Notes under the pieces: generated by a model
What the model was told of the DNA's origin: nothing
Databases searched by the model: none
Seen by the model: only the letters and a program-made list of their open reading frames with translations
Translations under genes and position numbers: made by a program
Part shown: in pieces, positions 1 through 17,580 of the stretch
Position numbering within the stretch: the first letter of the stretch is position 1
How the letters are laid out: each line of letters opens with the position of its first letter
Origin: Rubripirellula tenax
GTDB lineage: Bacteria > Planctomycetota > Planctomycetia > Pirellulales > Pirellulaceae
Length of the DNA stretch: 64,000 bases
Direction: 5' to 3'
Assembly (NCBI RefSeq): GCF_007860125.1
Contig: NZ_SJPW01000002.1
Location: forward strand, 1,093,768-1,157,767

Positions 1-1651
1 TTGCGAGGCATACAACCAACAGCGGAAATCGGAGTGAGAATCGAAGCGTTGGCAGATACACCGTTTCGATGAACCACTCCAATCCTTTAGCGACACAGCC
101 ATTGACGATTGCGATTGCTGAACCGACAAAGCGAAACGGTCCGAACAACCAACACATTGCCTTCATACCCGGTCCGTCATCGTGTGCGAGGTGCGATGGC
201 AAAACGGTGAGTGCCTCGGTAAGCGAAAACAGCAAAATCGCGATGACCGCAAACGGCAACACTTCCGTGAACCGAGCCAATTGTCCGGTCATGAACATCA
301 TCGGCAGAAACGCCAGCACCGTGGTCAGCACACTGGTCACGACCGAAGGCATGACCTCCAACGTTCCGTCGATCGCAGCATCACGTAGACTCTTGCCCAT
401 CGAACGATGAACGTAGATGTTTTCGCCGATCACGATTGCGTCGTCGACCATGATGCCCAGCGCAATCAGGAAGGCGAACATCGAAGTCATGTTCAGTGTT
501 TGGCCGGTGTAGTACATCAGCGCGCAGGCACCCGCAATGGAAAGCGGAATGCCCATCGAAACCCAGATCGCCAGACGCAGCTCTAAGAACAATGTGAGCA
601 GCAGAAACACAAGCAGCAAACCCTGCCAGCCGTTCTTGACCAGCAGCATGAGTCGCGCAAGCACATCGTTCGTGCGGTCGCGAAAATAGATCAGTTCATA
701 GCCATCGGGCGGCGAGTATTCGTTGACGAATTTCTGGACCGCTCGACCAACGTGAATGATGTCCTCGGTTTGCGTCGTGTCGACCTGAATGGCCAGTCCG
801 GGTCGACCGTTGATTCGGCTGATCGCGGAGTCGTCGGTAAACTGATCACGAACACTGCCGAGGTCGCTGATCGTTAAGACAACACCGTTTTCGTTAGTCA
901 CCAGCGGAATGTCGCCGATGTCCTTGCCGGTCGATTGACGGTTGCTGCCGCGAAGCAAAATGTCTTGCGAGGCCGTCTTCATCGTTCCACCGGGTACTTC
1001 GATGTTTTGTGATCGAACGTTCTCAGCGACTTGCGAAAGGGTCAAGTTGTACTGGCGCAGCGTTTCTTCGGGAATTTCGACGTCGATCTGGTAGCGTGGG
1101 ACACCGACGACTTCGGCCTGCGAGACTTCGTCCATCAGCAGAACTTCGTCACGAATCTGTTCGGCTAGATCGCGCAGCGCGAGACTTGCGGCAATCGTGT
1201 TCTCATCGGGGCCGATCACGCCGATGCTGAGTGCCGTTGTTCGCGGTTGTTGCCGCTGGACGACGGGCTGTTCGGCCAGTGCGGGAAAACTCGGAATGCC
1301 GTCGACCCGCGAGCGAACTTCGCCCAGAATTTCTTGCACTTCAGGCTCGCTGACGTCGGCTTCTAGTTCAATCGAGACGACACCCGATCCTTCGCGAGCA
1401 ACCGACGTGATTCGCCGTACGCCCTGAACGCTGCGGACTGCTTCTTCAATTCTCTGGCAGATGCCTTCTTCGACTTCTTCTGGACTTGCCCCGCGATACT
1501 CGACGCTGACTTGGATCACATCCAAATTAGAGTAGGGCCAGAACTCACGCTGCATGGATGCGGCGCACCAAGTCCCAAGGATCAGAATCGCAACGACCAG
1601 GGTGTTCGTCGCGGGACCGTTATCGACCGCCCAGCGAACAACCGACCTCAT
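1..1651 (-). CDS. RND efflux transporter permease subunit (partial, C-terminus beyond window)
   Basis: Reading leftward from an ATG at 1651, the frame stays open to the window edge, giving about 550 N-terminal residues. The protein starts MRSVVRWAVDNGPATN, has a first membrane helix (TLVVAILILG), then a periplasmic porter region beginning with SVEYRGASPEEVEEGI, the typical hydrophobe/amphiphile-efflux start. Later come paired helices including LRLAIWVSMGIPLSIAGA and the conserved FAFLIALGIMVDDAIVI segment, whose acidic pair belongs to the proton relay of RND pumps. It should sit in the inner membrane and exchange protons for an exported compound. Its ATG overlaps the TGA of the adaptor gene by four bases, so the two are translationally coupled. 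The substrate cannot be told from sequence. Confidence 0.93.
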   Translation of the reverse strand, partial: MRSVVRWAVDNGPATNTLVVAILILGTWCAASMQREFWPYSNLDVIQVSVEYRGASPEEVEEGICQRIEEAVRSVQGVRRITSVAREGSGVVSIELEADVSEPEVQEILGEVRSRVDGIPSFPALAEQPVVQRQQPRTTALSIGVIGPDENTIAASLALRDLAEQIRDEVLLMDEVSQAEVVGVPRYQIDVEIPEETLRQYNLTLSQVAENVRSQNIEVPGGTMKTASQDILLRGSNRQSTGKDIGDIPLVTNENGVVLTISDLGSVRDQFTDDSAISRINGRPGLAIQVDTTQTEDIIHVGRAVQKFVNEYSPPDGYELIYFRDRTNDVLARLMLLVKNGWQGLLLVFLLLTLFLELRLAIWVSMGIPLSIAGACALMYYTGQTLNMTSMFAFLIALGIMVDDAIVIGENIYVHRSMGKSLRDAAIDGTLEVMPSVVTSVLTTVLAFLPMMFMTGQLARFTEVLPFAVIAILLFSLTEALTVLPSHLAHDDGPGMKAMCWLFGPFRFVGSAIAIVNGCVAKGLEWFIETVYLPTLRFSLRFPLLVVCLA

Positions 1652-3045
1652 GGTCGCGCGATCGCGGTTGCGGAACTGGTTAAGACTCTTTGTGCGTCAG
1701 GTCTTGATCCTTGTCGATTTCCGTTCGCGATTGCTCCGCGGCGAGGTTCGTTCGCGATCATTGAAACCGCGAGACCCGGCTTTGCATTCGGGACCGGCGA
1801 GCTGATGATCTGCTCGTTTCTATTGAGCGCGGAATCGTGCGTGTGGAGATAGGCGATTCCATTTCTGATACGAGCGACGCGAACCGGCTCGATCTGCAAT
1901 TCATCGCCCCGCATCACCCATACGTTTTTTCCCGGACGAATCACGGATTCCGGCACGACCAACAACGGCCGCTGAGGCTCGCAATGCAGACGCACGCGAA
2001 CAAACATTCCACGCAGTAACGCGAGCGAGTCGTTAGAGGAACCGCAATTCTGTGTCGGATTGTCGACACAGATTCGGACGGGAATGGTGCGGGTCTTCTC
2101 GTCGACGCCAAGTCCGTCTTGTCGACTGAGCACCGCACTCCACGCGTAAGTTTTCCCATCGCGGTCGTATTCAACCGTGACCGGAACTTGCGGCAATTCG
2201 TAGCCACCGCCCTGCAAGAACGCCATGTCATCGCCCCGCAGACTCGCACGCACTTCGACCTTGGACGTGTCTTCGACAGAAGCGACAATGTCACCTGCTG
2301 ACAACATTCCATTCTGTTCGACGTGGTTTGCGATGACGACGCCAGAGAAGGGTGCCTTGATTTCAGTCCGTTCCAAATCAAGCTTTGCACGCCGCAGTTG
2401 CAGAGTCGCAAGTTCCAACGTCGTTTGCAGCGTCTTGGACTGCGACTCGAACGTCCGCAATTGATTTTCTTGCGACGTCGTCTGTTGCACGGCGGACAGC
2501 ATCGCCAATTCGACCGCGTCAGCTTCGCTGGCGGAGGTCGCATTGGCGTTTCGCAAACGCGCCAACCGCTGCACCTCTCGCTTGCGAAGCGACAAGATGT
2601 CTTGATTGATCGACAAGACTCGCTGCGTGTTTTCCTTGTCGAGTTGCAGTCGTTGGATTTCTAGATTGACCTTTGCAACTTCCTGCTCTAGACGTGCCAC
2701 TTCGATTTCATAGTCGGTTGGGTCGACGCGGATTAGCAACTCACCTTCGGCAACGACATGCCCCGGGCTAACCGACTCGGATTTGAAGACGACTTCGCCG
2801 CTGACCCGTGCCGCTAGTTGCACTTCGCGGTAAGGAATCGCGACGCCGCTGACGACGATGTCCAGCGTTCCGGTGTGAGGTTGTGCCTGAACCAGTTCGA
2901 CAGGGATAGACTTGCGAACGGGCGGCTTCTTCCGTTCTGGTCGCTCTTGTGCGCCCATCGAATAGACAAACCATCCCGCGCAGCCGAGAACCATCAGCGG
3001 CGCGACGTAGCGAAGGAATAGGGTTGGGATTGGTCGTTTGTTCAT
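1648..3045 (-). CDS. RND efflux periplasmic adaptor (membrane fusion protein, HlyD-like)
   Basis: A 465-residue periplasmic adaptor that would link the downstream RND permease to an outer membrane channel. Starting at ATG 3045 it has an N-terminal anchor (LFLRYVAPLMVLGCAGWFVY), a lipoyl-type half (AARVSGEVVFKSESVSPGHVVAEGELL), a long alpha-hairpin rich in Glu, Gln and Leu at about residues 105-215, the second lipoyl half (IKAPFSGVVIANHVEQNGML) and a beta-barrel/membrane-proximal C-terminus. The frame is open further upstream, but that sequence carries an inverted repeat and reads as a non-coding leader, so ATG 3045 is preferred. Its stop overlaps the permease start (ATGA). Confidence 0.92.
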   Translation of the reverse strand: MNKRPIPTLFLRYVAPLMVLGCAGWFVYSMGAQERPERKKPPVRKSIPVELVQAQPHTGTLDIVVSGVAIPYREVQLAARVSGEVVFKSESVSPGHVVAEGELLIRVDPTDYEIEVARLEQEVAKVNLEIQRLQLDKENTQRVLSINQDILSLRKREVQRLARLRNANATSASEADAVELAMLSAVQQTTSQENQLRTFESQSKTLQTTLELATLQLRRAKLDLERTEIKAPFSGVVIANHVEQNGMLSAGDIVASVEDTSKVEVRASLRGDDMAFLQGGGYELPQVPVTVEYDRDGKTYAWSAVLSRQDGLGVDEKTRTIPVRICVDNPTQNCGSSNDSLALLRGMFVRVRLHCEPQRPLLVVPESVIRPGKNVWVMRGDELQIEPVRVARIRNGIAYLHTHDSALNRNEQIISSPVPNAKPGLAVSMIANEPRRGAIANGNRQGSRPDAQRVLTSSATAIARP

Positions 3046-3088
3046 GAGGTTTCGTAGCGGAAGCCGACAAGGTTCTGTCGTTTGATAG

Positions 3089-3148
3089 GTGGGACCGGCT
3101 TCTAGCCTGCCGGTGCATCCTGATTGACAGGCTGGAAGCCTATCCCAC
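3089..3148. repeat. Imperfect 21-bp inverted repeat between sulfatase and RND operon
   Basis: Arms at 3089-3109 and 3128-3148 pair at 18 of 21 positions around an 18-base spacer; both contain the GGCTTC/GAAGCC core and GTGGGA/TCCCAC ends. It lies between the sulfatase stop (3186) and the adaptor start (3045), both on the minus strand. It could form a hairpin that ends sulfatase transcription, although no T-run follows it, or be one copy of a dispersed intergenic palindrome. Confidence 0.75.
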
Positions 3149-3185
3149 GTTTCAATGTTGAATAAACTCACTAACCGTCGATGGG

Positions 3186-5990
3186 CTATTGGCGTCCCGG
3201 ACGATTGTTTGCGTCGATCTGTCCCCAGTATCCTCCGATGATGTGTGGGTATTCGCCCGGCGTGACGTGATAGTGAGGACCACGATCGGGGTCTTCGTGA
3301 AGATTGAAATCGTTCAGCGGGTTCTTCGTGTCGTCTTTGGCAAGCAAGCCTTTTGATTCGTACGGACCGTAGACAGGAAATCCGTCGAATGCGAATCCGA
3401 TCACGCCCGAATGCGATTGCCCTTCGTCGCTCCAAGGCGTCTTCACGCAAACCGGATACTTGTGATAGTGGTACTGCTGTCGTGGACTTGGGTGGCCGCA
3501 ACAACGATCGAGTCGCCAAACCGCATCGGTTTCAAAGATGTGGTCGAAAGGATTGAAGAAGATCACGCCGTTGGTTGCGACACCAATCGCTCCCATGGGT
3601 AACGCTTGGTTGGAGTTCTTTTCGTCCATCGCGATCGCGTCGGGATCACGTTTTGGCTCCAACGGAATGTGCCAAGTGTTCGCCTGTTCTTTGATGTACG
3701 ACGGGTTCCCGTCAAGCATTCGCCAACGATCGGGGAACGTCGCGGTCGGGTGGTTGGGCAGGTTGCGACTTCGCATGACAAGATGCTCGTCCGAGAACGT
3801 GACGATGACGGCGTAGGGCTTGTGCTTGTCCGTCGTCACTTCGTCCCCGTTGAAATCCAGGTATCCGGCACGCAACCACGAACTCATATTGGACGCGAAC
3901 GGTGCGTGGTAACGATCGGTCTTGTAAAGCAGTTGCTGGGCGTTGGTGTAGTCGAACTGCTTAGGTGCGACACGCTGTCCGTTTTGCGGGTTGAAGTACC
4001 AGCGACCGCCGAGGGCAACCAGCTTCGATTCATCCGGCTGTGGGAAGTCTTGCAGGGTCGGTTTCGCTGCTTGATAGCTGGCGGGCGTGTCGATGGGTTT
4101 GATGTCCATCGAATTGACCCAGAACTCCGACCTCCCTTCTTGGGCTTTCCCGTTGGCAAAGCCGACGCTCAGCTTCACCGTATCGACTTCCGCGAACGGA
4201 GTTCGGAAGTCCATCGCGTAGGTTCGCCACGTTGCGTGACCGAGACTCTGGTTGGTCGCTTTGTCGAAGAGATCTTTACGTTCCTGCAACACTTGCGGGT
4301 AGATTCGTTCTTTGATCAGGTCCAGTGAATCGGTGCCGTTCTTTTGAAAGAACTCGACTTTCAAATAGAGTTCTTCCTGATCGACAGCAAAGCTGTCTTG
4401 AGCGAGCCCCGAGATGTAGAAGCGATACCAACGCTGGTCCGGAGAAACGTCATTGCTAGTAAGCGACGCTTCGCCCGCAAACGCACCGTTGCCATCGAAA
4501 TCTTCGCTGGACAGCAAGCGTATGCCGCGACCATTGGATTCGACTCGCGGATCGCCTAACACGCCGAACTTCGCATCGCCAGTGATTGCTGCCGCCGATA
4601 GCGATTCGCCTTCCTGTAAGTCTTCCGTCGCCGTGGCTGCCGAACCTCTGGTCGTGCCACGCTCGGCGACAAGTGTCTTGACGGCATCCTCAGAAGGCCC
4701 ATCCGTTCGGACGATCACTTTGTACTGAGTCAGGGTAGACAACATCTGCGATGCAACCTTTGGTTCTGAATCAGCCACGTTCTTCGCTTCCGTCGGATCC
4801 GATCGCAGGTTGAACAGTTCCGTGCCGCCGCCTGCAAATTGAATCAACTTCCAGTCGTCGCGAATGATCGCGTGATCGCTCTCGGCAATCACGATCGTTC
4901 GTGAAGTTGCCTTGCCGGTTTTCAATTGCGTCCAAAGATCGAATCCGTCGAGCGGCTTGGGCGAAGCGATCGAAACTCCGGTGGCCGCTGCAAGCGTTGG
5001 GAACAGATCGTGAATCGCACAAAGCTGTTCATTCTCAGTTCCGGCCTTTAAGGTGCCGGGTGCGCGGATGACGCATGGGACGTGAATACCGCCCTCGTAG
5101 ACTTCTCGTTTCTGCCCACGAAACGGCTCGTTCGTGCCGGATCGTGCCGCGCCGTTGTCCGATGCAAAAACGACGATCGTATCCTCGCGAAGTCGCTTTT
5201 CGTCGATGGCGTCAAGAATGCGCCCGATGCCTTGGTCCATTGAATCGACCATCGCCGCATAAGTTGCCTCGCGTTCGCTCAATTTCCCCTGATACTTCGC
5301 AATCAGGTTCGTTGGAGATTGAAAGGGTGAGTGGGGAGCGTTGAAGGATAGGACGATGCAAAACGGTTTACTTGAGTCGCTGCTTTTGATTTGGCGTACT
5401 GCTTCGTCAGCCAACAAGTCAGTTGAGTAGCCTTCTTCATTGACGGTCGTTCCGTCACGTTGCCAGTCGACTTGCCCTTGTCCAGAGATGTGCTTGTAGT
5501 AGTCGATCGAGGCGTCAAGAAAGCCGTAAAAGTGGTCGAAGCCTCGGCGATTAGGATGTGATTCATCACCGGCAAGTCCAAGATGCCACTTGCCGATCAG
5601 GCTGGTTTCGTAACCGGCTTTCTGAAACGCAGCGGGCAGCAATCTTTCGCTGGTCGGCAAGCCTTCGTCGCGTGGCCGCACAGGGCCGGAGATTCCATAG
5701 CGCCCGGGAAACCGACCGGTCAGCATCGCCGCACGCGCCGGACTGCACGCCGGATAGGCATAGAAGCGATTGAGTCGCACACCGTCTTTTGCCAGCGAAT
5801 CGATGTTCGGAGTTTCGGCGATCCCTCCGTGAAATCCGACATCCCCCCAGCCAAGATCATCCGCGAGCAAGACAACGATGTTCTTGTGAGTTGCGTCGTC
5901 CGCAACGGAAGGAGCCATCAAAGCGACGGCAGTCAACATCGCAAGTGCGTAACTGATGAGTCGTATACGGCGATAACTCTGCAGGAGCAT
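3186..5990 (-). CDS. Exported sulfatase with C-terminal YHYH domain
   Basis: A 934-residue fusion. Residues 1-30 form a signal peptide (LISYALAMLTAVALMAPSVA). The alkaline phosphatase-fold sulfatase domain follows: metal-binding VVLLADDLGWGDVG near residue 40, then YPACSPARAAMLTGR with the CxPxR signature whose Cys82 is the expected formylglycine site, plus GKWHLGL and FASDNG motifs. It should hydrolyse a sulfate ester in the periplasm or outside the cell after activation by a formylglycine-generating enzyme, not seen here. After a middle region of about 250 residues (resembling a carbohydrate-binding or jelly-roll module, unassigned), the C-terminus holds a YHYH domain with CCGHPSPRQQYHYHKYPVC and GFAFDGFPVYGPYE. 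The start is the ATG at 5990 just before the signal peptide; a TTG 57 bases upstream is in frame but less likely. Substrate unknown. Confidence 0.93.
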   Translation of the reverse strand: MLLQSYRRIRLISYALAMLTAVALMAPSVADDATHKNIVVLLADDLGWGDVGFHGGIAETPNIDSLAKDGVRLNRFYAYPACSPARAAMLTGRFPGRYGISGPVRPRDEGLPTSERLLPAAFQKAGYETSLIGKWHLGLAGDESHPNRRGFDHFYGFLDASIDYYKHISGQGQVDWQRDGTTVNEEGYSTDLLADEAVRQIKSSDSSKPFCIVLSFNAPHSPFQSPTNLIAKYQGKLSEREATYAAMVDSMDQGIGRILDAIDEKRLREDTIVVFASDNGAARSGTNEPFRGQKREVYEGGIHVPCVIRAPGTLKAGTENEQLCAIHDLFPTLAAATGVSIASPKPLDGFDLWTQLKTGKATSRTIVIAESDHAIIRDDWKLIQFAGGGTELFNLRSDPTEAKNVADSEPKVASQMLSTLTQYKVIVRTDGPSEDAVKTLVAERGTTRGSAATATEDLQEGESLSAAAITGDAKFGVLGDPRVESNGRGIRLLSSEDFDGNGAFAGEASLTSNDVSPDQRWYRFYISGLAQDSFAVDQEELYLKVEFFQKNGTDSLDLIKERIYPQVLQERKDLFDKATNQSLGHATWRTYAMDFRTPFAEVDTVKLSVGFANGKAQEGRSEFWVNSMDIKPIDTPASYQAAKPTLQDFPQPDESKLVALGGRWYFNPQNGQRVAPKQFDYTNAQQLLYKTDRYHAPFASNMSSWLRAGYLDFNGDEVTTDKHKPYAVIVTFSDEHLVMRSRNLPNHPTATFPDRWRMLDGNPSYIKEQANTWHIPLEPKRDPDAIAMDEKNSNQALPMGAIGVATNGVIFFNPFDHIFETDAVWRLDRCCGHPSPRQQYHYHKYPVCVKTPWSDEGQSHSGVIGFAFDGFPVYGPYESKGLLAKDDTKNPLNDFNLHEDPDRGPHYHVTPGEYPHIIGGYWGQIDANNRPGRQ

Positions 5991-6275
5991 GACAGGATTT
6001 CGGATGCGGGGAGTGAGACAAAACGGGACTGCCCTTGGAAACCCCAAGGATTTGAATGATCTACAGGCATTTCCTCGATAACGAGAGAAAGACGCCTCCT
6101 AGCCCATTGTTTGTCGACGCACGAAAACATCCAGCGTGACCTCCCGAAAGCTGACTTTGCTTCAGGTTAGGGTGTAGATTGCCAGCCCGGAGCGGGTTCT
6201 AGTTACTGTTCGTCGGTCCATCGATCGTCCCGAGTCCGTCTCGACGCTTCACCCTCTTGCCCCTTCTCGACTGCT

Positions 6276-9200
6276 ATGCCCAATCCACAGTCCCGTCGGT
6301 CATCTTCCCTTAAACGTCCCCTTGGGAATTTACGACGAAACCGCGGCGCACTCCGGATCGAAGTGCTAGAGAGTCGTTTGTTGCTTCACGGGGACACGCC
6401 CACTTCGATGGGGCAGATGGAAGATCAGCCCGGCGATACCGCAATGGAAGTTTCCGGACACTCGCATGACATGACCGAAACGGTGGCTGCCAATTCAAAC
6501 AATCCCCCGTCGGTCTTGTTGCACGCCACACCAAATTCGTCAGGGATTGAAGTTCATCTGAGCCTATCAAATTTTGAATTGAGCTCGAAAAACGTCGACC
6601 AGGCGCACATTGATGGTCAGGGTCACGCTCATCTTTACTTGGACGGAGTAAAAGTCACTCGACTGTTCGACAACACCTACCAGTTGGACAACGTGGCGAC
6701 TGGCTCGCACACGGTGTCCGTGGAACTGGTGTCGAACGACCACCGTGTTTACTCGATTGCCGGTCACAGCATCGAAGCCATTGCCGAAGTCACGGTTGGA
6801 CCGATCGCAAGTCAGTTTGCTGTGACCGCGGGGTTGATCAGCACCACACTGGAAGGTGTCGACGCCGGCGATCAACTTGGCACGGCCGTCCGTGGTGCGG
6901 GCGACTTCAACGGCGACGGGATTGATGACGTGATCATTGCTGCACCGATGGCCAGCAATTCGGGGAACACAAACGACGGTGAAGTCTTCATCGTCTTCGG
7001 CTCAGCATCCGGCCTTCCGAGCACGTTCGACTTAACGACGCTCAATGGCATCAACGGATTCAAGATCGTCGGTGCCAATTCCGGCGACTTGGCGGGTGCT
7101 TCGGTCGGTGGTGGTGGCGACTTGAACAACGACGGATTTGACGACGTGGTGATCGGAGCTCCGGAAGCCGATTCACTTAATCGTGTTGATTCGGGTGCAG
7201 CCTTTGTTCTTCTGGGCTCCAACTCGTTCGGTGCAGCGTTCAATCTGGCGAATCTGAATGGTGCGAACGGCTTTCGCATCAACGGTGCCGTTGCCGGTGA
7301 CGACGCAGGACGCGCCGTTGCGATCTCGAGCGATGTCAACGGTGACGCTTTCGACGAAGTCATCGTGGGCGCGCCGCTAAGTGACAGTGGTGGTGCCGAT
7401 GCAGGTGCCGCCTATGTGATTTTTGGCCGTGCGGCCAATTTCCCAGCGTCGATCGACTTGAACTCCGTTTCGTCGGCTCAGGCCATCCGCATCAACGGCA
7501 CGACGGGAGAGAATCTTGGCTTTAGCGTTGACACGGCGGGCGACGTCAACAGCGACGGCCTGAATGATATTGTCATCGGCGCACCGACAGGTCTTGGCGG
7601 TGGCGTTTCGACGTCGTGTGACTCCGCCAATACCGTCGGGTTGATTCAGTGCGACGCGGCGGCAGCACCGGGTTACACACTTTTCGCACCGAACCCTTCC
7701 ACTGAAACTTTTTTAGTGGATCAAAACGGCTTCCTCGTCAACTCTTGGACGGCCTCGAATCGTCCAGGCTTGTCCGCAGTTCTTTTGGATGACGGTTCAT
7801 TGCTGCGAACCGCGAACACAGGCGGGACAAATTTTGTTGCCGGCGGCAATGGTGGCGCCGTCGAAATTTATGACTGGGAAGGCAATCGGACTTGGCAGTA
7901 CACCTATAGCAACGCGCAACACCGATTGCACCACGATGTCGAGATGCTGCCAAACGGCAACGTGTTGATGATCGCTTGGGAATTGAAGTCGCAAGCCGAA
8001 GCAATCACAGCCGGTCGTGATCCATCACTGCTAACCGATGCACGTCTATGGCCTGACACCATCATCGAAGTCCAACCGACCGGCGCGACAACGGGCGACA
8101 TTGTTTGGCAGTGGAATGCATGGGACCACTTGGTCCAAGACTTTGATGCAACGAAGGCAAACTTTGGTTCAGTCGCAAGTAACCCGCAATTGATCGACCT
8201 GAACTTCACCTCCAATGGCGGTGAAGACTGGTTGCACTTTAATTCGATTGACTACAACCCGGCGCTGGACCAAATCCTGATTAGCGTCCACGGTTTCAGT
8301 GAAATCTGGGTGATTGATCACAGCACAACGACACAACAGGCGGCCTCGCACAGCGGCGGTGATTCGGGCAAGGGCGGCGACTTGCTTTATCGTTGGGGCA
8401 ATGCGGAAGCCTACCAACGTGGCACTACCGCTGATCGTGAATTCTATACCCAGCACGACGCCCAATGGATTGAACCCGGTTTGCCGGGAGCAGGCAATAT
8501 CTTGGTATTCAACAATGGCCAGCGACGGCCCGGAGGCAACGCTTCATCGGTTGAGGAGCTCACGCCCCCGGTCGACGCTAACGGAAACTACACGCTCAAT
8601 GGAACCACCGCCTACGGGCCGACCAGCGCCGTATGGACTTGGACCGATACACCAGCGACCGATTTCTATGCACAGAATATTTCTGGGGCACATCGACTGG
8701 CGAACGGGAACACGTTGATCACGAATGGACCGGAAGGAAGATTCTTGGAGGTCGATGCAGCAGGTGCTGAAGTTTTTGAGTACATCAATCCGGTAACCAA
8801 TTCGGGGCCGCTTGCGCAGGGAACCACGCCAGCACAAAACGCCGTCTTTCGAGCGACAAAGTACGACCCTTCGTTTGCCGGATTCAGCGGACGTGACCTG
8901 TCGCCTGGCGGCACGGTAGAAACAGGCGGCGGCACGGCGACCGAAATTTCAGTTCAGGAAGGTTCGGCCTACGTCGTGTTCGGCTCTACTGCGATTGGAA
9001 GTTCTGGCGTTAGTTCGCTCAATGGCAGTAGCGGGTTCAAAATTTCCGGCGCCGGCTTGGGCGACCAAACTGGCTACTCCGTCGGTACGGCGGGTGATGT
9101 CAACGGCGATGGCTTCGATGATGTGGTGGTCGGATCACCGCGTGCGAAGGTGGATGGAGTGTCGGTGGGTGCAGCCTATGTCGTGCTGGGCCGTGCGAGT

Positions 9201-11546
9201 GGATTCTCGTCCAACATCCTGCTCAATTCGTTGACCGCAGCGACCGGCTACCGCTTGGCCAATGACTACCAATCCGATCCCTTGTTGAATTCGCTGATCG
9301 TCAACGCGACCGGCCAGACTGGACACAACGGTGCGATCGTGAATTTCGATTCGGTCATTCTGGATAAAGACTACGTTCACGTTCACACCTCAGGCATTCC
9401 GCACTACAGCATCGGCCCCTGGGGCCCAAACCCGAACGACGCAACTGACCAAGACGTGACGTTCTATATTCCGCGAGATCCTGTCGTTAACGAAGGGACA
9501 AAAACGCGAACACGGTTAGGAGCGATCGGTACATGGATTGACGGGACCGCGATTTTCAATTGGTCCGACGGTCGCACCTTCCAAAACGCGGGTGTGTGGA
9601 ATCGCTTAGCGGTTGTCTTTGAAGCAGTCAGCTTTGACGCATGCGACGCACACCCACCTGCGACGGGGCAGTACCACACGCACGGTGTTCCCACGTGTCT
9701 GGTCAATGAATTAGACGACGATGGATCGGAACATTCGCCGATCTTAGGCTGGTCGTTTGATGGTTTTCCTATCTACGGTTCGTATGGCTACGTTGACGGG
9801 AATTCCAACGCAGGCATCGAGCGTATCGAATCCAGTTGGCAGCTACGTAACATCACGTCGCGGACCGATGGACCGCCACTAGCCGCGCAACCTCTCGGGT
9901 CATTCCTCGAGGACTTTGAGTACGTCGCAGGCTCCGGTGACTTAGATCAATACAACGGACGGTTCTCGCCCACACCTGATTACCCCGACGGCATTTATCA
10001 CTACTATGTGACGATTGACGCTAGCGGCGAACCTGCGTTTCCGTACTCGATTGGATTGGAATACAACGGTGTGGTCGCGCCGGGCAACGCAAACAATGGT
10101 GGCACAGCGCCGGCTTTAGGTTCTGCCGAAATCGCCGTCGGTACGGGGGGTGATCGAAACAACGATGGGTTTGACGATGTGATCGTGGGAGATCCCAATG
10201 CGTATGTTTCGGGCGTTGGCGTGGCTGGATCGGTTTTTGTCGCCCATGGTGGTCCAAACAACCCCGCTGACGTGCATTTGCATGCGATTGACGGCAGCAA
10301 CGGAATTCGACTCGATGGCTCCGCCGCGGGCGACCGCGCCGGCGTGAGCGTTGATTTTGCCGGCGACGTCAACGGCGATGGCAGCGACGATTTAATCGCA
10401 GGAGCACCCGGGAACGATTCGGGCGGTATGAATTCAGGCGAGGCGTTTATCGTCGTCGGCGACGTACTGCCAGCCAGCGTTGTTGGTCGGGGCGTGGCCT
10501 ACGCGGGCGCCAGTGCGTCGTACGGCGAACACGCAAACGATCCGAACAAGTCTGCGCTGCGGGTGCCGGGCACCACAGCCACTGCTGCCAACTTCACGAA
10601 TTACACGAAGGGCTTAAACCGTGTTCTGGTCGACATCGCCAACCTTCCGCTTGGCAACCTGGACAGCGACGGCGATTTTGATTTTCGGGTCGGCAATAGC
10701 CCGGACCCAAGCACCTGGACGCTGCTGAGCGGAACGGCGCTACCGACCGTCTCCTCGGCGGTGGATTTCGGTGGCGGCGTGTCACGGGTGACGCTGACTT
10801 GGGCCGACGCGTTTGCGATCAAGAATAGTTGGTTGCAAGTGACGGTAAACGCGAACGGAAATACAGGACTGCTTCAGGATGACGTGTTCTATTTTGGAAA
10901 CCAAGTCGGTGATGTTGACGGATCGACATCGTCATCAGGGCGAGTGACCGTGAATGCTTTTGACACGCTTGATATCAGATTCAATCAAAGCCCGAGTGCC
11001 GGAAGCGTTGACATGAGTCACGCCAAGTACGTGTATGACATCGACCGCAGCGGATCGGTCAACGCATTCGACACGCTTGATGCGAGGTTCAATCAGGTGC
11101 CCTCGGGTGGGTTGATGATGATCACGTTGCCTTCGTCACCGCCCCCTGCTGCGCTGGCAGCCTTCGCGGCGCGCCAAAATCCCAACGATCGATTGGACGT
11201 CAACGCAGACGGCAAGGTCACTTCGTTGGATGCGTTGTTAGGAATCAATCTTCTTGAGATGAAGGGCATGCCATCGGCGCAGTCCGGGTCTCCGCTGTAC
11301 TTCTACGACGTCAACGGTGATGGTCGCACCACGGCTATGGATACTTTGCAAATCATCAACGCATTGTCGTTCGCGTCGTATCCTGAGAGCCAACTCGTGA
11401 TTCCTCAACAAGTTTCGTTGCTAGAGCGTGAAGACCAGTTCGACTGGATTTCAGACAAATCTCGCGAGGCGGAGAACGCTTTTGACTTGGTAGTGAAAGA
11501 CTGGGATTCCGTCGACAGCGACGATCTGGCTGTTCTGAATTTTTAG
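6276..11546 (+). CDS. Giant planctomycete surface protein: FG-GAP repeats, arylsulfotransferase-like and YHYH insertions, dockerin repeats
   Basis: A 1756-residue exported protein. The N-terminus has a basic stretch followed by LRIEVLESRLLLHGD, the LExRLLL signature of planctomycete extracellular proteins. FG-GAP/integrin-like blades of the GDFNGDGIDDVIIAAP type run from about residue 195 to 450, with Asp-rich calcium-binding loops. An arylsulfotransferase-like (ASST) domain occupies about 460-870 (GYTLFAPNPSTETFLVDQNG, HRLHHDVEMLPNGNVL). One or two further blades follow, then a YHYH domain at about 995-1270 (CDAHPPATGQYHTHGVPTC, GWSFDGFPIYGSYG), more blades to about 1400, a common planctomycete pre-dockerin segment, and four dockerin-like calcium motifs at 1545-1705 (DVNADGKVTSLDALLGINLL). 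It starts 285 bases from the divergent sulfatase gene. Whether either inserted domain is catalytic is unknown. Confidence 0.9.
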   Translation: MPNPQSRRSSSLKRPLGNLRRNRGALRIEVLESRLLLHGDTPTSMGQMEDQPGDTAMEVSGHSHDMTETVAANSNNPPSVLLHATPNSSGIEVHLSLSNFELSSKNVDQAHIDGQGHAHLYLDGVKVTRLFDNTYQLDNVATGSHTVSVELVSNDHRVYSIAGHSIEAIAEVTVGPIASQFAVTAGLISTTLEGVDAGDQLGTAVRGAGDFNGDGIDDVIIAAPMASNSGNTNDGEVFIVFGSASGLPSTFDLTTLNGINGFKIVGANSGDLAGASVGGGGDLNNDGFDDVVIGAPEADSLNRVDSGAAFVLLGSNSFGAAFNLANLNGANGFRINGAVAGDDAGRAVAISSDVNGDAFDEVIVGAPLSDSGGADAGAAYVIFGRAANFPASIDLNSVSSAQAIRINGTTGENLGFSVDTAGDVNSDGLNDIVIGAPTGLGGGVSTSCDSANTVGLIQCDAAAAPGYTLFAPNPSTETFLVDQNGFLVNSWTASNRPGLSAVLLDDGSLLRTANTGGTNFVAGGNGGAVEIYDWEGNRTWQYTYSNAQHRLHHDVEMLPNGNVLMIAWELKSQAEAITAGRDPSLLTDARLWPDTIIEVQPTGATTGDIVWQWNAWDHLVQDFDATKANFGSVASNPQLIDLNFTSNGGEDWLHFNSIDYNPALDQILISVHGFSEIWVIDHSTTTQQAASHSGGDSGKGGDLLYRWGNAEAYQRGTTADREFYTQHDAQWIEPGLPGAGNILVFNNGQRRPGGNASSVEELTPPVDANGNYTLNGTTAYGPTSAVWTWTDTPATDFYAQNISGAHRLANGNTLITNGPEGRFLEVDAAGAEVFEYINPVTNSGPLAQGTTPAQNAVFRATKYDPSFAGFSGRDLSPGGTVETGGGTATEISVQEGSAYVVFGSTAIGSSGVSSLNGSSGFKISGAGLGDQTGYSVGTAGDVNGDGFDDVVVGSPRAKVDGVSVGAAYVVLGRASGFSSNILLNSLTAATGYRLANDYQSDPLLNSLIVNATGQTGHNGAIVNFDSVILDKDYVHVHTSGIPHYSIGPWGPNPNDATDQDVTFYIPRDPVVNEGTKTRTRLGAIGTWIDGTAIFNWSDGRTFQNAGVWNRLAVVFEAVSFDACDAHPPATGQYHTHGVPTCLVNELDDDGSEHSPILGWSFDGFPIYGSYGYVDGNSNAGIERIESSWQLRNITSRTDGPPLAAQPLGSFLEDFEYVAGSGDLDQYNGRFSPTPDYPDGIYHYYVTIDASGEPAFPYSIGLEYNGVVAPGNANNGGTAPALGSAEIAVGTGGDRNNDGFDDVIVGDPNAYVSGVGVAGSVFVAHGGPNNPADVHLHAIDGSNGIRLDGSAAGDRAGVSVDFAGDVNGDGSDDLIAGAPGNDSGGMNSGEAFIVVGDVLPASVVGRGVAYAGASASYGEHANDPNKSALRVPGTTATAANFTNYTKGLNRVLVDIANLPLGNLDSDGDFDFRVGNSPDPSTWTLLSGTALPTVSSAVDFGGGVSRVTLTWADAFAIKNSWLQVTVNANGNTGLLQDDVFYFGNQVGDVDGSTSSSGRVTVNAFDTLDIRFNQSPSAGSVDMSHAKYVYDIDRSGSVNAFDTLDARFNQVPSGGLMMITLPSSPPPAALAAFAARQNPNDRLDVNADGKVTSLDALLGINLLEMKGMPSAQSGSPLYFYDVNGDGRTTAMDTLQIINALSFASYPESQLVIPQQVSLLEREDQFDWISDKSREAENAFDLVVKDWDSVDSDDLAVLNF

Positions 11547-11952
11547 AATGTCGACCCGCGTACGACACAACGAAAATCACCAGCACGAGAAGAAATCCTT
11601 TTCTCTTTTGGTCGGGAACTGTCCACGTTCGTGGGAATCTGAAGGCTCAATCCAGCAGTCCGCACTGACAAGAGTCTCGATCAGACTTCGCGAAAGAACC
11701 GGCACAACCAAATCCAAGCTTGCAAATGCAGGTGCCTTTGGTCAAATTTTAAGCGGGTCAATTTTTTTACGACTACGAATCGTGCCAGGGACGAGACGTT
11801 TCGATTGCTGAATCGGCGGTTGAAGAACGGTTTCCCAACCGTCTGATTGGCGAAGCAATCGAACTGCTATCATCCACCGTCAATGGGTAGTCAGATTCCG
11901 GAAAGGTCGGCGTGCATTCGATCAGACTCTTCACCGCTACGACCAACAACTT
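11547..11952. other. Intergenic stretch upstream of the ECF sigma factor
   Basis: The 406 bases between the surface protein and the ECF sigma factor gene hold no convincing gene. An 87-codon frame begins two bases after the stop of the surface protein but has a composition unlike a protein and no recognisable motif. A short weak hairpin with a T-rich tail around 11594-11615 might terminate the giant gene. The right part presumably carries the promoter of the sigma factor gene; no consensus was recognised. Confidence 0.5.
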
Positions 11953-12573
11953 ATGAGCGTTCCCTCGAATTTCGGCGTCGAGAATATCGAGCAACAACTC
12001 AAACACGGTGATTTATCGCTGTTCGGTGACGCGTTTTCGCGTCATCGTCCCCGACTATGGCAGATCATCCATTTCCGGCTCAGCGATCAGATTCGCGCCC
12101 GTGTTGATGCTGATGATGTGTTGCAGGAAGTCTACCTCGATTCAGAAAAGCGACTCGATCACTATGTCGAGGGGGATTTCCCTTCACTGTTTCTGTGGCT
12201 ACGGCTGGTAACAGGGCAAACACTAAGCCGAGTCCATCGCCGACATCTGGCCACCGAATCACGTTCGATGTTGCGTGAATCCAGTCCGAACGACGGAAAT
12301 CTATGGGGCAACACGTCGCTGTGTCTTTCGCAGCGTTTTATTGCTCATCTGACTTCACCAAGCCAAGCGGCAGTGAAGGTGGAGTTGATTGCGGAAGTGC
12401 GGTCGGCACTGAGTGAAATGAATGACATCGATCGCGAGGTGGTTGCGCTGCGTCATTTTGAAGAACTGACCAATCAAGAAGTTGCATTGGAACTTGGCAT
12501 CACGCCGAAAGCCGCCAGCATTCGGTATGTGCGAGCGTTAGAACGGTTGCGGTCGGTGCTGGAGAAGATTTGA
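11953..12573 (+). CDS. ECF-family RNA polymerase sigma factor (planctomycete type)
   Basis: A 206-residue sigma-70 relative. Region 2 lies at about residues 20-80 (WQIIHFRLSDQIRARVDADDVLQEVYLD), with the DADDVLQE motif of region 2.2. Region 4 occupies the C-terminus (EMNDIDREVVALRHFEELTNQEVALELGITPKAAS split as an HTH) and the recognition helix ends with IRYVRALERLR. It would direct RNA polymerase to a regulon of its own. It lacks an adjacent classical membrane anti-sigma factor; in planctomycetes such sigma factors are often linked with Ser/Thr kinases, and one lies 2.5 kb downstream on the same strand. Start chosen at the ATG in a good distance from region 2. Confidence 0.92.
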   Translation: MSVPSNFGVENIEQQLKHGDLSLFGDAFSRHRPRLWQIIHFRLSDQIRARVDADDVLQEVYLDSEKRLDHYVEGDFPSLFLWLRLVTGQTLSRVHRRHLATESRSMLRESSPNDGNLWGNTSLCLSQRFIAHLTSPSQAAVKVELIAEVRSALSEMNDIDREVVALRHFEELTNQEVALELGITPKAASIRYVRALERLRSVLEKI

Positions 12574-12612
12574 GTGTTGGTTGTGGCGGACGAAGGATCG
12601 CGCGAGGGAATC

Positions 12613-12701
12613 GAAAGAGTTAAATTGACAAATAGAAAATGCACAGTGGCTTGATCGGTCGCAATCATTTGTCACTTTTCAGTTGTCAATTTACAACTTT
12701 C
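12613..12701. repeat. Imperfect 29-bp inverted repeat, copy upstream of the EF-hand gene
   Basis: Arms 12613-12641 and 12673-12701 match at 22 of 29 positions, both centred on TTGTCAATTT/AAATTGACAA and markedly A/T-rich compared with the surroundings. A second, related inverted repeat is found on the other side of the gene (14834-15035). The A/T-rich sequence lies just upstream of the EF-hand gene and could be part of its leader. Confidence 0.6.
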
Positions 12702-12811
12702 AATCTCTGTCTACGCTTTTCAAAAACTTTCCTCCATTTTCAGTAGATGTTTCCTCGCCGTGGGGTTTCATAGCACGAACCCTCCTCAATGAAACTTCCA
12801 CGGGAAAAATC

Positions 12812-14839
12812 ATGAAGCGTCTTTCGTTGCTTACAGTTTTTTGCGCACTGGCTTTGCTGCTAAGCGATTCACTTGCCAACGCACAGCCGCCAGGTGGACG
12901 CCCCGGCCAAGGAAGCGGACGACAAGGTGGTGGACCGGGTGGTCCCGGCGGCGGACGCGGCCAAGGGATGGGTGGATCTGGTGCTCAACAAATGCCTCCT
13001 TTGCTGCGCATTTTTGATGCCGATGGTGATGGAGAGCTTTCGTCGAAGGAAATCGACGCGGCAGCGAGTGCGTTACGAAAATTGGATCAAAACCGCGATG
13101 GAAGACTGACCGCCGAAGAATTCCGACCGACCGGGCAACCGGATTCTCAAGGAGAAGGTCGCGGCGGTCCACGAGGTGCAATGCAAGGTGGCCAGCCTGG
13201 CGGCGGTCGACCGGGTGGCGGGCCGGTTGGTGGCGGAGCTCCGGGAGGCGGTCGACCGGGTGGTGATGCTGCCGGCGGCGGTCGAGGTGGTGACCCTGCT
13301 CAGGCCGACGCAGCTTTTGCGAAAGACATTATGTCCTTTGACGAAAACAAGGACGGGATGCTCGGTAAATCCGAATTGCCCGAACACATGCACCAAGCGT
13401 TCGATATCGCCGATGCGGACAAGAACGGATCACTCAACGAAAAAGAATTGCTCGTGTTAGCGTCGCAATTCCGCCGCGGCTCGCTGAGCCCGGACGCTGA
13501 GCAGGAAATCAAGAACGCCCCCACTCAGGGTCGCGGGGCAGCGCAAGGTGGCGGCGCTGGACAAGGTCAGGGGCGAGGCGGCAGGGGTCAAAGTGGCGGG
13601 CGAGATGGCCAGGGTATGGGCTCCGGTCAACGCGGTGGCGGCGGCCAGGCATCTCGTGGTGGAGAGCGTGAACGGCCTCGTGACAGAGTGAGCCCCCGTG
13701 ATGCGCAATTCAATGAAATGCACCCGCTCGGCGCAACGCTGCCAGACTCTCTGCAGCTTTACAATGTTGATCGCAAGCTGGTTGCCGCCAACAGCATCTT
13801 CGATGCTAAGTACACCGTCATCGTCGGCGGGTGTCTGACCTGTCCTGAATTTCGCAACTCCTATCCGGAAATCGAAGCGGTCGCCGCCGACTTTCGCGAC
13901 AAAGGCGTGCAGTTCTACTTCCTGTTTCAGTCGCTGACCCACCCTGAAAACTGGGGCTACGTGCAGCCGACGTCGATTCAGGAAAGATTCGCTCAGGTGG
14001 ATCACGCCAAGGATCTGCTCAAGACATCGATTCCCTGGCTGACCGACACGATGGAAAACGAGATGAAGCAGCATTTCGGGATGACGCCGAATTCGCAGTT
14101 CGCGTTCGATCGCGATGGAAAAATTGTGCATCGTGCTTCGTGGGGGCGAGGATCCAGTCTTCGGGAGTCACTTGAAGAACTGGTCGGGCCGTCTGAAAAA
14201 ATCACGACAGTCGCAGAACTAAATCTGCCTCAGTCTGGCTCACATCGCACGAACCCCAATGACATGCTGGTTGAACGCAAGACGCTCGAGGGAATCGCCG
14301 TACCGCTAAAAGTCGCCGCGGGTGGCCAAGAAATGCAGGCTGAAAGTCTGACGTCTCTCAACTTCACGGAGTCCAATCGTTACGCCAAGCTGCGTCCGGA
14401 AGCCGATCAAGAACTGCTGCGAACCGGAAGCGGACAACTGTACCTCGGTTTCCGACAAGATCCGATTCTGGGAGCAGAATGGAACAACCTAGCGACTCCA
14501 CCGAAGTATCGCATCACTGCCGATGGCGTCACGGTCACACCTGCGATGGCGGAAGCTGAAAAGCTTAGCGTGGAATCCGATACGGAACCGCGTGAGTTCC
14601 TGGTCGACGTTAAGAACTGGGAATCGGGCAAGCCCATCAAGGTCGAGATTCAGTACTTTGCCTGCAACAAGAAAAAGGGCTGGTGCAAACCAGTGACACA
14701 GGAGTTCACGGTGTGGCTACAACAGGACCGAACAGCCGGCATGGTCGCCGGTCGAAGCCACTTTCCGGGTGGGCGCGGTAACGCAAGTCAGGGAGGCCAA
14801 GGCCGTCCGGGCGCGGGACAGAGGCCGGGGAGGAATTGA
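12812..14839 (+). CDS. Exported Gly-rich protein with EF-hands and a redoxin/deiodinase-like domain
   Basis: A 675-residue protein with a signal peptide (MKRLSLLTVFCALALLLSDS, then LANAQ). Two pairs of EF-hand loops are visible: DADGDGELSSKE and DQNRDGRLTAEE near residues 68-106, and DENKDGMLGKSE and DADKNGSLNEKE near 175-215. Each is set in Gly/Arg/Gln-rich linkers of low complexity. Residues about 300-465 look like a thioredoxin-fold domain related to iodothyronine deiodinases (TVIVGGCLTCPEFRNSYPE, with a CLTC pair). The C-terminus has a Cys-containing segment (YFACNKKKGWCKPVTQEFT) and ends Gly/Arg-rich. The ATG at 12812 is chosen because it begins the signal peptide; an open frame upstream starts at 12683. 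Calcium binding and a redox role are family-based inferences. Confidence 0.85.
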   Translation: MKRLSLLTVFCALALLLSDSLANAQPPGGRPGQGSGRQGGGPGGPGGGRGQGMGGSGAQQMPPLLRIFDADGDGELSSKEIDAAASALRKLDQNRDGRLTAEEFRPTGQPDSQGEGRGGPRGAMQGGQPGGGRPGGGPVGGGAPGGGRPGGDAAGGGRGGDPAQADAAFAKDIMSFDENKDGMLGKSELPEHMHQAFDIADADKNGSLNEKELLVLASQFRRGSLSPDAEQEIKNAPTQGRGAAQGGGAGQGQGRGGRGQSGGRDGQGMGSGQRGGGGQASRGGERERPRDRVSPRDAQFNEMHPLGATLPDSLQLYNVDRKLVAANSIFDAKYTVIVGGCLTCPEFRNSYPEIEAVAADFRDKGVQFYFLFQSLTHPENWGYVQPTSIQERFAQVDHAKDLLKTSIPWLTDTMENEMKQHFGMTPNSQFAFDRDGKIVHRASWGRGSSLRESLEELVGPSEKITTVAELNLPQSGSHRTNPNDMLVERKTLEGIAVPLKVAAGGQEMQAESLTSLNFTESNRYAKLRPEADQELLRTGSGQLYLGFRQDPILGAEWNNLATPPKYRITADGVTVTPAMAEAEKLSVESDTEPREFLVDVKNWESGKPIKVEIQYFACNKKKGWCKPVTQEFTVWLQQDRTAGMVAGRSHFPGGRGNASQGGQGRPGAGQRPGRN

Positions 14840-15035
14840 AAAGGTTAAATTGAAAAATGCGAAATGAAGGAGTACGACTTCAATCCTTCCGCAGACTCGA
14901 TTTCGCTGTGACGACAGGCTTGCCAATGGTATTGCACATACGACACGCGAAATCCAGCAGACGGTCTTCGAGTTCATCTCCTCGTTTTTCCACAGCCTCA
15001 CCTTTCCTTCAATTGTCAATTTGATTTTTCCAATT
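14834..15035. repeat. Related imperfect inverted repeat downstream of the EF-hand gene
   Basis: Arms 14834-14857 and 15012-15035 pair at 18 of 24 positions and share the TTAAATTGA / TCAATTT core with the inverted repeat at 12613-12701. The left arm starts in the stop region of the EF-hand gene and the right arm ends ten bases before the kinase start. The arms are about 155 bases apart, so a simple terminator is unlikely. Confidence 0.5.
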
Positions 15036-15045
15036 ATTGTCACAC

Positions 15046-17580
15046 ATGACTTCCACTGATATCGACGACGATACCTACGCAACGGTCGATATCCTCGCCA
15101 GCGATTTCGTGGCACGTTATCGCAATGGCGATCGCCCCACCGTAGAAGAATACGCGAATCGCCATCCCGATTTGCGTGAGCCGATCCGGCGTGTCTTTCC
15201 GTTGGTGCTTTCGGTCGAGAAGGTCAAGATCGATCAGCAAGTTGAAAGCGATGGAAGTGCAACACTTGCCGGGCGCTTGCTTGAAAGGCTCGGTGATTTC
15301 CGGATCCTACGAGAGATCGGGCGTGGCGGCATGGGGATCGTTTACGAAGCCGAGCAAGAGTCTCTCGGACGCCGCGTCGCGATCAAGGTTCTGCCAAAGC
15401 AGTCTTTGCTAGACGACACTGCCTTGCAAAGTTTCGAGCGTGAAGCCAGCACTGCTGCGGCGATGCACCATTCCAACATTGTGCCCATTTTTGGGACCGG
15501 CGAATGCGATGGAACGCATTACCTGGTGATGCAACTGATCCGCGGCGAGTCGCTTGATAAACGTATCACCGCAGAGGGACACTCACTCGATTGCCGAACC
15601 GCCGCTGAAATCGCAGCCCAAATTTCCGACGGACTTGCATACGCTCATGGCAACGGCGTGCTTCATCGCGACGTGAAGCCCGCCAACATCCTGATTGACG
15701 AAGATGGCGTCGCGCAACTGACCGACTTCGGACTTGCGCGGAATACGCGAGACGATCCGACCGTGACGCAAGCGCTCAGCGGGAGTCCTCGCTACATGGC
15801 ACCGGAACGTTTCCAAGGACAATCCGATGAGCGATCAGACGTGTACGGGGTTGGATTGACACTCTACGAGATGCTGGCCGGAACCCCCGCTTTCAAAGAC
15901 CTAACTCCGCACCAACTGCCGGAGGCCGTGAAGCTTCATCTCATCAAGCCACTGAGTGATTTCCGGGCCAACATTCCCGCGGATTTGCGAACGGTTGTGG
16001 CCAAGGCGATCAATCCTGACCCGGCGCATCGGTATCAATCCGCGTCCGATTTGCGAGATGATCTCAATCGCTTTTTGAGAGACGAGCCTATTCTTGCTCG
16101 ACGCACTACCGCGTTACAGAGTTTCATTCGCTGGTGTCGTCGCAACCCAAAACTCGCCGGCGTCACCGGCATCGCAATCGTATCGATGCTGGTCGCAACC
16201 GTCGCGTCGTCGATCGGGTTTGCGATGACATCTGCTGCCAACAAGCGGACCAGCGAGGCGTTAGCACAATCCGAGCAAACCGTCGATCTGGCGTTGCAAT
16301 CGCTCGACGGCGTTGTGGACGCGGTTTCCATCCCGGCCTCCGCGATCGGAGATATGGATATGGGAGAATTAGATTCCTCGCAATTTCTGCTAAATCCATC
16401 ACCGCACGCGGCGATGGTACTGGAGAACATCCAACCGCTGTACGAACGCCTTGCCAACCAGTCTCCGACTCGACCCGACATTGTTCGGCAAATGATTGAA
16501 GCGAGCCTTCGGCTTTCCCAGATTCGACAACAACTCGGACAGACCGACGCTGCGATCACAACTCTCGACCAGAGCATTGAACTCTTGGAGACACGCGGTG
16601 ACTTGGCTGGTTTGCCAACCAATGAGAAACAAATTCTCATTGCACGTTTGCACAACGAACTTGGCAAAGTCTACGCACTGGAATTGGAATACGCGAATTC
16701 CGACAAAGCCTACGCAATGGCAATCCAGTCCGGCGAAGCCGTCACCGATCCAGACGATCGTCTGAAATTGCAACTAGCTTATGCGCTCGTTTCGCTAGGC
16801 GACCCGCTTGTCCAGCGTCGCCGCGACCGAACCGAATCGTTGGATGAATCGCGAATCGCCCGCGATCGTTTGGCGGCGGCCAAGTCGTTACTTAGCGAAT
16901 TGAATCCCTCTGTGCACGACGCGAGTGAAGTTGCCGTGCTGCGAGCACGCATTCAACTTGCCGATTCACGCCGAGCAAAGCGGCCAGCGGTTCGACAGTC
17001 AGAGTTTTCATCCGCCACCGAAATCCTGCGTGAACGACTGATTCAATCACCCGACGATACCCGCGTTCGATTTGCCTTGGTCGAAGTACTCGCCAGCGTG
17101 AACCTGAGACGACAGTTCGGTTCGAAAAGATTGGCCGATGAAGCGGGCGATCGACTTCATGAAGCGCTCGCCGAACTACAACCGCTTCGGTCGATCAATC
17201 CCGAGACACAGTTGTTCGCAGTCTCCGAAATTCATATTCTGCACAAGCTTTCGAGCCTCGCGCGTTCGGACGGCGACTTTGCTCTTGAACAGGAACGCCT
17301 CGAAAAGGCAATTGCGATCCAGTCGTCATTGGTGATTGCATCGCCTAACAGCATGCCCCACCGATGCTGGCGAGCGTTGCTGTACCGAAGTCTCGCCGAA
17401 GTTTACCGACGGCAAGGCGACAAAGATGCAGCCCGTGAAGCAATCTCGACCGCCGTTGCCGACTTGGACGCCATCGACGCAGAGTCAAAGGCACATCCGT
17501 TTGCCGTCCAGACTCAACAAATCATTCAAAAGCTGGTCAGCGAAGGAAACGGCAATCCATCGAACAAAGACGGATTGTAG
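15046..17580 (+). CDS. Membrane Ser/Thr protein kinase with C-terminal TPR-like region
   Basis: An 844-residue Hanks-type kinase. After about 80 residues (including YRNGDRPTVEEYANRHPDL, typical of planctomycete kinases) the kinase domain spans about 84-350: glycine loop IGRGGMGIVYEAE, VAIKVLP with Lys114, HRDVKPAN with the catalytic Asp209, DFGLAR at 227-232 and SGSPRYMAPE. All catalytic residues are present, so it should be active. One transmembrane helix follows near 368-395 (GIAIVSMLVATVASSIGFAM), leaving about 450 residues outside the cytoplasm that contain helical, TPR-like pairs. The start is the ATG at 15046; an in-frame TTG lies nine bases upstream. It may work with the ECF sigma factor encoded upstream. 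Confidence 0.93.
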   Translation: MTSTDIDDDTYATVDILASDFVARYRNGDRPTVEEYANRHPDLREPIRRVFPLVLSVEKVKIDQQVESDGSATLAGRLLERLGDFRILREIGRGGMGIVYEAEQESLGRRVAIKVLPKQSLLDDTALQSFEREASTAAAMHHSNIVPIFGTGECDGTHYLVMQLIRGESLDKRITAEGHSLDCRTAAEIAAQISDGLAYAHGNGVLHRDVKPANILIDEDGVAQLTDFGLARNTRDDPTVTQALSGSPRYMAPERFQGQSDERSDVYGVGLTLYEMLAGTPAFKDLTPHQLPEAVKLHLIKPLSDFRANIPADLRTVVAKAINPDPAHRYQSASDLRDDLNRFLRDEPILARRTTALQSFIRWCRRNPKLAGVTGIAIVSMLVATVASSIGFAMTSAANKRTSEALAQSEQTVDLALQSLDGVVDAVSIPASAIGDMDMGELDSSQFLLNPSPHAAMVLENIQPLYERLANQSPTRPDIVRQMIEASLRLSQIRQQLGQTDAAITTLDQSIELLETRGDLAGLPTNEKQILIARLHNELGKVYALELEYANSDKAYAMAIQSGEAVTDPDDRLKLQLAYALVSLGDPLVQRRRDRTESLDESRIARDRLAAAKSLLSELNPSVHDASEVAVLRARIQLADSRRAKRPAVRQSEFSSATEILRERLIQSPDDTRVRFALVEVLASVNLRRQFGSKRLADEAGDRLHEALAELQPLRSINPETQLFAVSEIHILHKLSSLARSDGDFALEQERLEKAIAIQSSLVIASPNSMPHRCWRALLYRSLAEVYRRQGDKDAAREAISTAVADLDAIDAESKAHPFAVQTQQIIQKLVSEGNGNPSNKDGL

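Follow-up and report, generated by a model that had tools for sequence, protein, structure and literature searches.

The window analysed here is a stretch of 64,000 nucleotides from Rubripirellula tenax, and the features discussed below are collected in Table 1. Pfam profiles and sequence motifs bore out the two ORFs that the sequence-only reading had placed at this locus: P0001 joins a sulfatase to a YHYH domain, and P0002, referred to here as the giant, joins an arylsulfotransferase (ASST) to another. In P0001, Sulfatase (PF00884) matched with an E-value of 2.3e-67 (227.9 bits against a cut-off of 25) and YHYH (PF14240) with 6.8e-16 (59.2 bits against a curated cut-off of 25); in P0002, YHYH matched with 1.6e-49 (169 bits against the same curated cut-off of 25), Arylsulfotrans (PF05935) with 6.2e-23 (81.8 bits against 24.2), FG-GAP with 1e-37 in six stretches of tandem repeats, and Dockerin_1 with 2e-12. 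Because all of these domains score well above the Pfam cut-offs, chance matches can be set aside. The listed start of P0001 is a TTG at 6047, and several orthologues start at the Met that is residue 20 of P0001 (base 5990). This Met is likely the true start, and from it to the ATG of the giant at 6276 the two genes are divergent and 285 bases apart, as had been described.

Table 1. Features of the R. tenax window in order of position, with the evidence for each.
Feature	Position	Strand	Basis
RND permease, cut by the window edge; same association as the HlyD adaptor	2..1651	minus	synteny
HlyD/RND periplasmic adaptor downstream of the sulfatase	1648..3519	minus	listed ORF extended; homology from about base 3045
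P0001, exported S1 sulfatase with C-terminal YHYH	3186..6047	minus	Pfam, motif, orthologue comparison
YHYH domain of P0001	3189..3842	minus	D112, H117, Y124, H125, H127 and D153 invariant (domain numbering)
P0002, surface giant: FG-GAP repeats, inserted ASST, inserted YHYH, type I dockerin	6276..11546	plus	Pfam, alignment
ASST-bearing stretch of P0002, inserted in an FG-GAP blade	7620..8960	plus	uninterrupted blade in the G077 giant
YHYH domain of P0002	9306..10100	plus	left junction with FG-GAP part common to the G077 giant
ECF sigma factor, conserved divergent neighbour of sulfatase-YHYH	11953..12573	plus	synteny
P0003, EF-hand protein with deiodinase-like redoxin domain, Cys387	12683..14839	plus	domain matches, alignment
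Ser/Thr protein kinase with TPR repeats	15037..17580	plus	kept in 17 of the 19 other listed loci

P0001 is made up of a sulfatase domain (residues 55-358), a middle part (about 450-735) without a Pfam match and the YHYH domain (about 736-953), and its sequence contains CSPAR, QYHYHKYPVC and GFAFDGFPVYGPYE. CSPAR fits CxPxR, the Cys-sulfatase motif, and by sequence P0001 is a Cys-type S1 sulfatase with predicted sulfatase activity. The best PDB chain for its sulfatase domain was 6bia, named only Sulfatase (E 6.7e-66), followed among the best chains by 1fsu (N-acetylgalactosamine-4-sulfatase) and 6b0k (iota-carrageenan sulfatase). This proximity to the GalNAc-4-sulfatase and the iota/kappa-carrageenan sulfatases hints at 4-sulfated galactose-type substrates. 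P0001 has the sulfatase domain and CxPxR in common with this S1 group (6bia, 1fsu, 6b0k, 9hh3 and 6prm) but, unlike its members, carries the extra middle part and the YHYH domain. A sulfatase of the P0001 type can exist without YHYH, since locus L043 of genome G037 keeps, within the same conserved block, a YHYH-less enzyme of 70% identity (13675-15054); the genome gave no YHYH match at all.

The giant, whose sequence contains QYHTHGVPTC and GWSFDGFPIYGSYG, has a single full counterpart among 241 genomes of the family: only R. tenax and G077 matched the FG-GAP/YHYH segment of P0002 from query residue 1 (E ≤1e-30). A genome scan with an alignment of the two giants found nothing. The G077 giant (locus L006) has YHYH, six FG-GAP stretches and a dockerin and lacks the ASST. 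When the two were aligned, the left YHYH junction was common to both and the G077 blade ran continuously through the ASST site. The ASST segment of P0002 covers both ends of ASST proteins that occur on their own, which makes the insert a complete module; because the blade is intact in one relative, the G077 giant, the alignment suggests that the ASST was gained in the window giant and not lost in G077. An AF2 model of P0002 residues 186-1385 had a mean pLDDT of 52.5, was poor outside the ASST part and did not confirm a nested propeller.

A search of PDB sequences with the single P0002 ASST sequence gave no match, and a profile match to E. coli AssT (3elq) was obtained at E 1.1e-10, with the His columns aligned and kept. 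The AssT residues concerned are the catalytic His, the HxN motif and the active-site Arg. P0002 keeps the HxN motif as well as a His in the column where the 4p04 chain has Asn, and it lacks the active-site Arg, with a His in that column; read from the alignment, the same column holds Arg in five, His in two, Pro in one and Lys in one of nine aligned relatives. Thus, whereas AssT is a free enzyme with the Arg, the P0002 ASST sits inside an FG-GAP/dockerin surface protein and has His in its place.

A YHYH scan of the 241 family genomes gave matches in 115, and the window's own genome (G000, 8.0 Mb) has five. Among the matches listed for these genomes are 20 sulfatase-YHYH ORFs including that of the window; a cut sulfatase-YHYH ORF from another family of the phylum (L130) was not counted among the 20, and L126 and L135 remained unassigned among the YHYH loci. 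In 18 of the 19 other listed loci, the gene divergent to sulfatase-YHYH encodes an ECF sigma factor homologous to that of the window, L117 being the sole exception. A deiodinase-like domain occurs in 13 of the 19, the L117 copy being more distant; in L012, L013 and L020 the EF-hand protein is shorter and lacks this domain, and neither was found in L007, L011 and L017. HlyD/RND genes are adjacent in four of the 19, and a different pump lies near L120. In G216, a genome of the same genus, locus L116 shows the full set of RND, HlyD, sulfatase-YHYH, ECF sigma factor, deiodinase-like protein and kinase, with no giant. The presence of the sigma factor and the kinase suggests that expression of the block may be signal-dependent.

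In the window, the giant is situated within this block, between the sulfatase and the sigma factor. Searching the 19 other listed sulfatase-YHYH loci by tblastn with the FG-GAP and ASST parts of P0002 found neither, and the simplest reading is therefore that P0002 was inserted in the lineage of the window. At the same place, five loci, L015 (12439-13878), L016, L018, L121 and L043, have an Lcl_C gene, checked with Pfam in L015 and L016 and assigned by similarity in the other three. Elsewhere in the R. tenax genome (L038, C9:30000-48000), a deiodinase-like protein, a YHYH-EF-hand protein, HlyD and RND follow in a row (8364-16169), a cassette resembling the window's set minus sulfatase, sigma factor and kinase. 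The idea that the pair sits in a sulfated-polysaccharide locus was rejected, as no sulfatase or glycoside hydrolase was found by Pfam at E 1e-5 in 10 of the 26 ORFs of at least 280 aa in the 18-64 kb part of the window.

The EF-hand neighbour, P0003, has a partial match to the deiodinase family NF038285 (E 3.1e-16; 59.8 bits, below the cut-off of 250) and has a Cys in a column where relatives carry an in-frame TGA. This Cys387 column is TGA in ten of ten relatives (L216-L225), which were chosen among those listed with TGA (GCLT*PPF), a motif that resembles the selenocysteine motif of deiodinases. Nine deiodinase-like copies near YHYH genes have no stop.

The YHYH domains of P0001 and P0002 are 34% identical over an alignment covering 58% of the length of the shorter domain. 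This identity, together with their placement in separately supported clades, rules out a recent duplication. The domain comparison kept 38 of 113 domains as non-redundant, and the tree kept 53 of 193 rows at a 62% identity cut. In a 42-sequence alignment of diverse YHYH domains (A1), twelve positions are invariant, including the six named in Table 1, and the P0001 and P0002 domains, both part of A1, keep all of the invariant D/H...YHxH...DG positions. A structure model of the domain was confident (pLDDT 85.6). Its fold search in the PDB returned nothing at E ≤0.001 (best E 0.5), a PDB sequence search with the YHYH profile gave no match, and a fold search of a viral library gave six matches at E ≤0.001, of which four are named YHYH and two are nameless.

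Two publications on phages bear on this domain: one predicts that YHYH holds Zn through three His and an Asp and acts as a hydrolase associated with the tail (PMC7824862), and the other lists YHYH alongside carbohydrate-binding (lectin/concanavalin-type) domains in tail and baseplate proteins (PMC7029224). The cases of PF14240 described in these papers are phage tail and baseplate proteins (PMC7824862, PMC7029224), whereas the cases in the window are exported sulfate enzymes. A literature search did not find YHYH together with sulfatase. We know of no tested activity for YHYH, and the papers that we found offer predictions. Both a hydrolase and a binder are compatible with these observations, and the phage tail context fits binding as well as catalysis. 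Among our own loci, L008 (5954-15571) and L009 (5929-10089) each place a giant-type YHYH in a very large ORF within a run of long ORFs on one strand; these are possibly prophage tail genes, because one has a weak baseplate-wedge match.

Fusions of YHYH to sulfate enzymes recur outside the window with differing domain order. Besides the window type (sulfatase-middle-YHYH), L021 of the same family has YHYH-EF-hand-sulfatase, and L125, from another family of the phylum, has sulfatase-YHYH-EF-hand-sulfatase, with a sulfatase on both sides of YHYH. The YHYH domains of L021 and L125 fall in another, well supported clade than the window type. In Ignavibacteriales, the L157 protein fuses ASST to YHYH and carries a type IX sorting tail, and in the tree the row nearest to the P0002 YHYH is the ASST-less G077 giant (99/91), not L157. 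The tree alone does not show more than one origin for the sulfatase or ASST fusions. Other YHYH proteins carry PBP domains, and five of 1058-1172 aa (L022, L023, L123, L124 and L127) carry a calcineurin-like phosphatase, some with PBP or EF-hands. A 245-aa operon partner of one YHYH subfamily had no Pfam match.

Gene neighbourhoods supported in part the expectation that YHYH genes elsewhere would lie near sulfatase or ASST genes. A separate sulfatase gene stands immediately upstream of 12 of 94 YHYH ORFs, compared with 19 of 547 at positions two to six (Fisher p 6e-4), an excess that rests on related genomes and is weaker when only the same strand is counted (11/61 vs 18/281, p 0.006). Immediately downstream there is no excess (4/91). 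Two matches without a YHYH label (L062 and L064) did not serve as anchors in these counts. The giant-type sample was the best 80 loci of the genome collection, many from Bacteroidota and Planctomycetota, some on short contigs and four without a YHYH ORF. Within the available stretch, six of the 80 have an ASST gene and six a sulfatase, whereas 74 lack a sulfatase and 74 an ASST. In the first 50 of the 80, ASST genes lie near YHYH in five, with 0.17 expected from a background of 61 matches in 177 Mb of whole genomes (p 9e-7); the observed matches were counted with a profile of alignment A3 and the background with PF05935. As the DNA of L169 and L170 is 93-97% identical, the five correspond to four independent loci (p 3e-5), and in both L169 and L170 the YHYH and ASST ORFs overlap. 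This expectation, like those given below for deiodinases and peroxidases, treats genes as uniformly placed and uses rounded genome sizes, and the related genomes do not represent independent cases. Most giant-type loci show neither enzyme.

With about even confidence, we propose from these sequence comparisons that YHYH serves exported enzymes acting on sulfuryl (and phosphoryl) esters as a partner module predicted to bind metal. Comparison shows two exported enzymes of different history with YHYH copies. The sulfatase-YHYH is the resident of the conserved locus, together with the divergent ECF sigma factor, the EF-hand/deiodinase-like protein, the Ser/Thr kinase and sometimes a downstream HlyD-RND pump, and the giant reads as a later arrival because of its position between sulfatase and sigma factor. 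With its three invariant His and an Asp, YHYH may be an accessory module that depends on metal and either hydrolyses or binds a ligand, and it would act on, or anchor to, the exported sulfated substrate that its partner enzyme also uses; such sharing would account for its reuse with sulfatases, ASSTs and phosphatases. In R. tenax, P0001 would desulfate a polymer, the giant would keep its ASST at the cell surface, where sulfuryl groups would pass between phenolic or similar acceptors, and the sigma factor and kinase would govern the sulfatase block.

Another possibility, tentative and rather less probable than the partner module, is that YHYH is a metal-dependent, lectin-like binding or adhesion module that targets unrelated exported proteins to a polymer, the sulfate enzymes being mere riders. 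The phage tail and concanavalin-type associations are in its favour, as are the variety of partners (dockerin, FG-GAP, EF-hand, PBP and phosphatase domains) and the majority of giant-type loci that show no sulfate enzyme. ASST proximity and repeated sulfatase fusion are, however, more specific than general targeting needs, and the three His and Asp resemble a catalytic or structural metal site.

The sequence-only reading had suggested a shared substrate or partner for P0001 and P0002. In a joint system of this kind, the sulfatase would free sulfate from a common substrate and the giant would move sulfuryl groups onto it, with a divergent promoter serving both genes. Their adjacency and common domain favour this idea, as does an ASST-YHYH protein (L157) that adjoins a second YHYH protein on the same strand. 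The G077 giant, too, is divergent to a second YHYH gene, and each giant has a probability of about 0.5% of lying within 5 kb of a further YHYH gene by chance, although this statistic is post hoc and has n=2. That gene is a different one, a stand-alone YHYH gene and not a sulfatase, with two small ORFs between; the G077 giant has no ASST, and the ECF sigma factor and kinase downstream of it are related only distantly to those of the window. ASSTs are not known to use the free sulfate that a sulfatase liberates. A lack of conservation of the neighbours in related species had been named beforehand as a refutation, and none of the 19 other listed sulfatase-YHYH loci has the giant. We consider a joint system improbable; as a pair, the two genes came together by accident or very recently. 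A conserved divergent pair is not supported, but the wider link of YHYH to sulfate enzymes, through fusions, ASST proximity and the upstream sulfatase excess, survives and is strong enough to test.

It is also unlikely, though conceivable, that YHYH is the hallmark of an exported pathway handling phenolic compounds that are sulfated and halogenated, such as algal phenolics, in which a haem peroxidase and the deiodinase-like redoxin would handle halogen, the ASST and sulfatase would handle sulfate, the RND pump would serve export and YHYH would be a shared metal-dependent enzyme or binding module. Across 149 genomes of the family, YHYH matches lie within 10 kb of deiodinase-like matches in nine pairs (0.23 expected), seven of them at one orthologous locus, and within 10 kb of animal-type haem peroxidases in five (0.38 expected). 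Both sets of pairs were picked by eye from the listed places, with the expectation computed, and the peroxidase count was chosen after one neighbour had been noticed, a haem peroxidase with dockerin close to a YHYH gene of R. tenax itself (L040, C4:75000-92000; 3095-5635). Against this reading, P0001 is nearest to galactan and GalNAc sulfatases, and most YHYH genes have no deiodinase-like or peroxidase neighbour. Least probable is an accidental neighbourhood, in which large surface-protein genes insert often in big genomes and chance brought the two YHYH domains together; no locus but the window's was seen to have the giant in this position, and domain shuffling is evident, but this would explain the window locus and leave aside why the link recurs in other phyla and why sulfatase fusions are repeated.

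In sum, PF14240 is a widespread family for which we found predicted functions only, and the link to enzymes narrows the search to ester chemistry or the binding of sulfated polymers. The recurrent association of YHYH with sulfatases, arylsulfotransferases and phosphatases is testable with one or two proteins. P0002 also suggests how a surface protein may gain an enzyme, with a blade that is uninterrupted in G077 and holds an ASST inside it in R. tenax.
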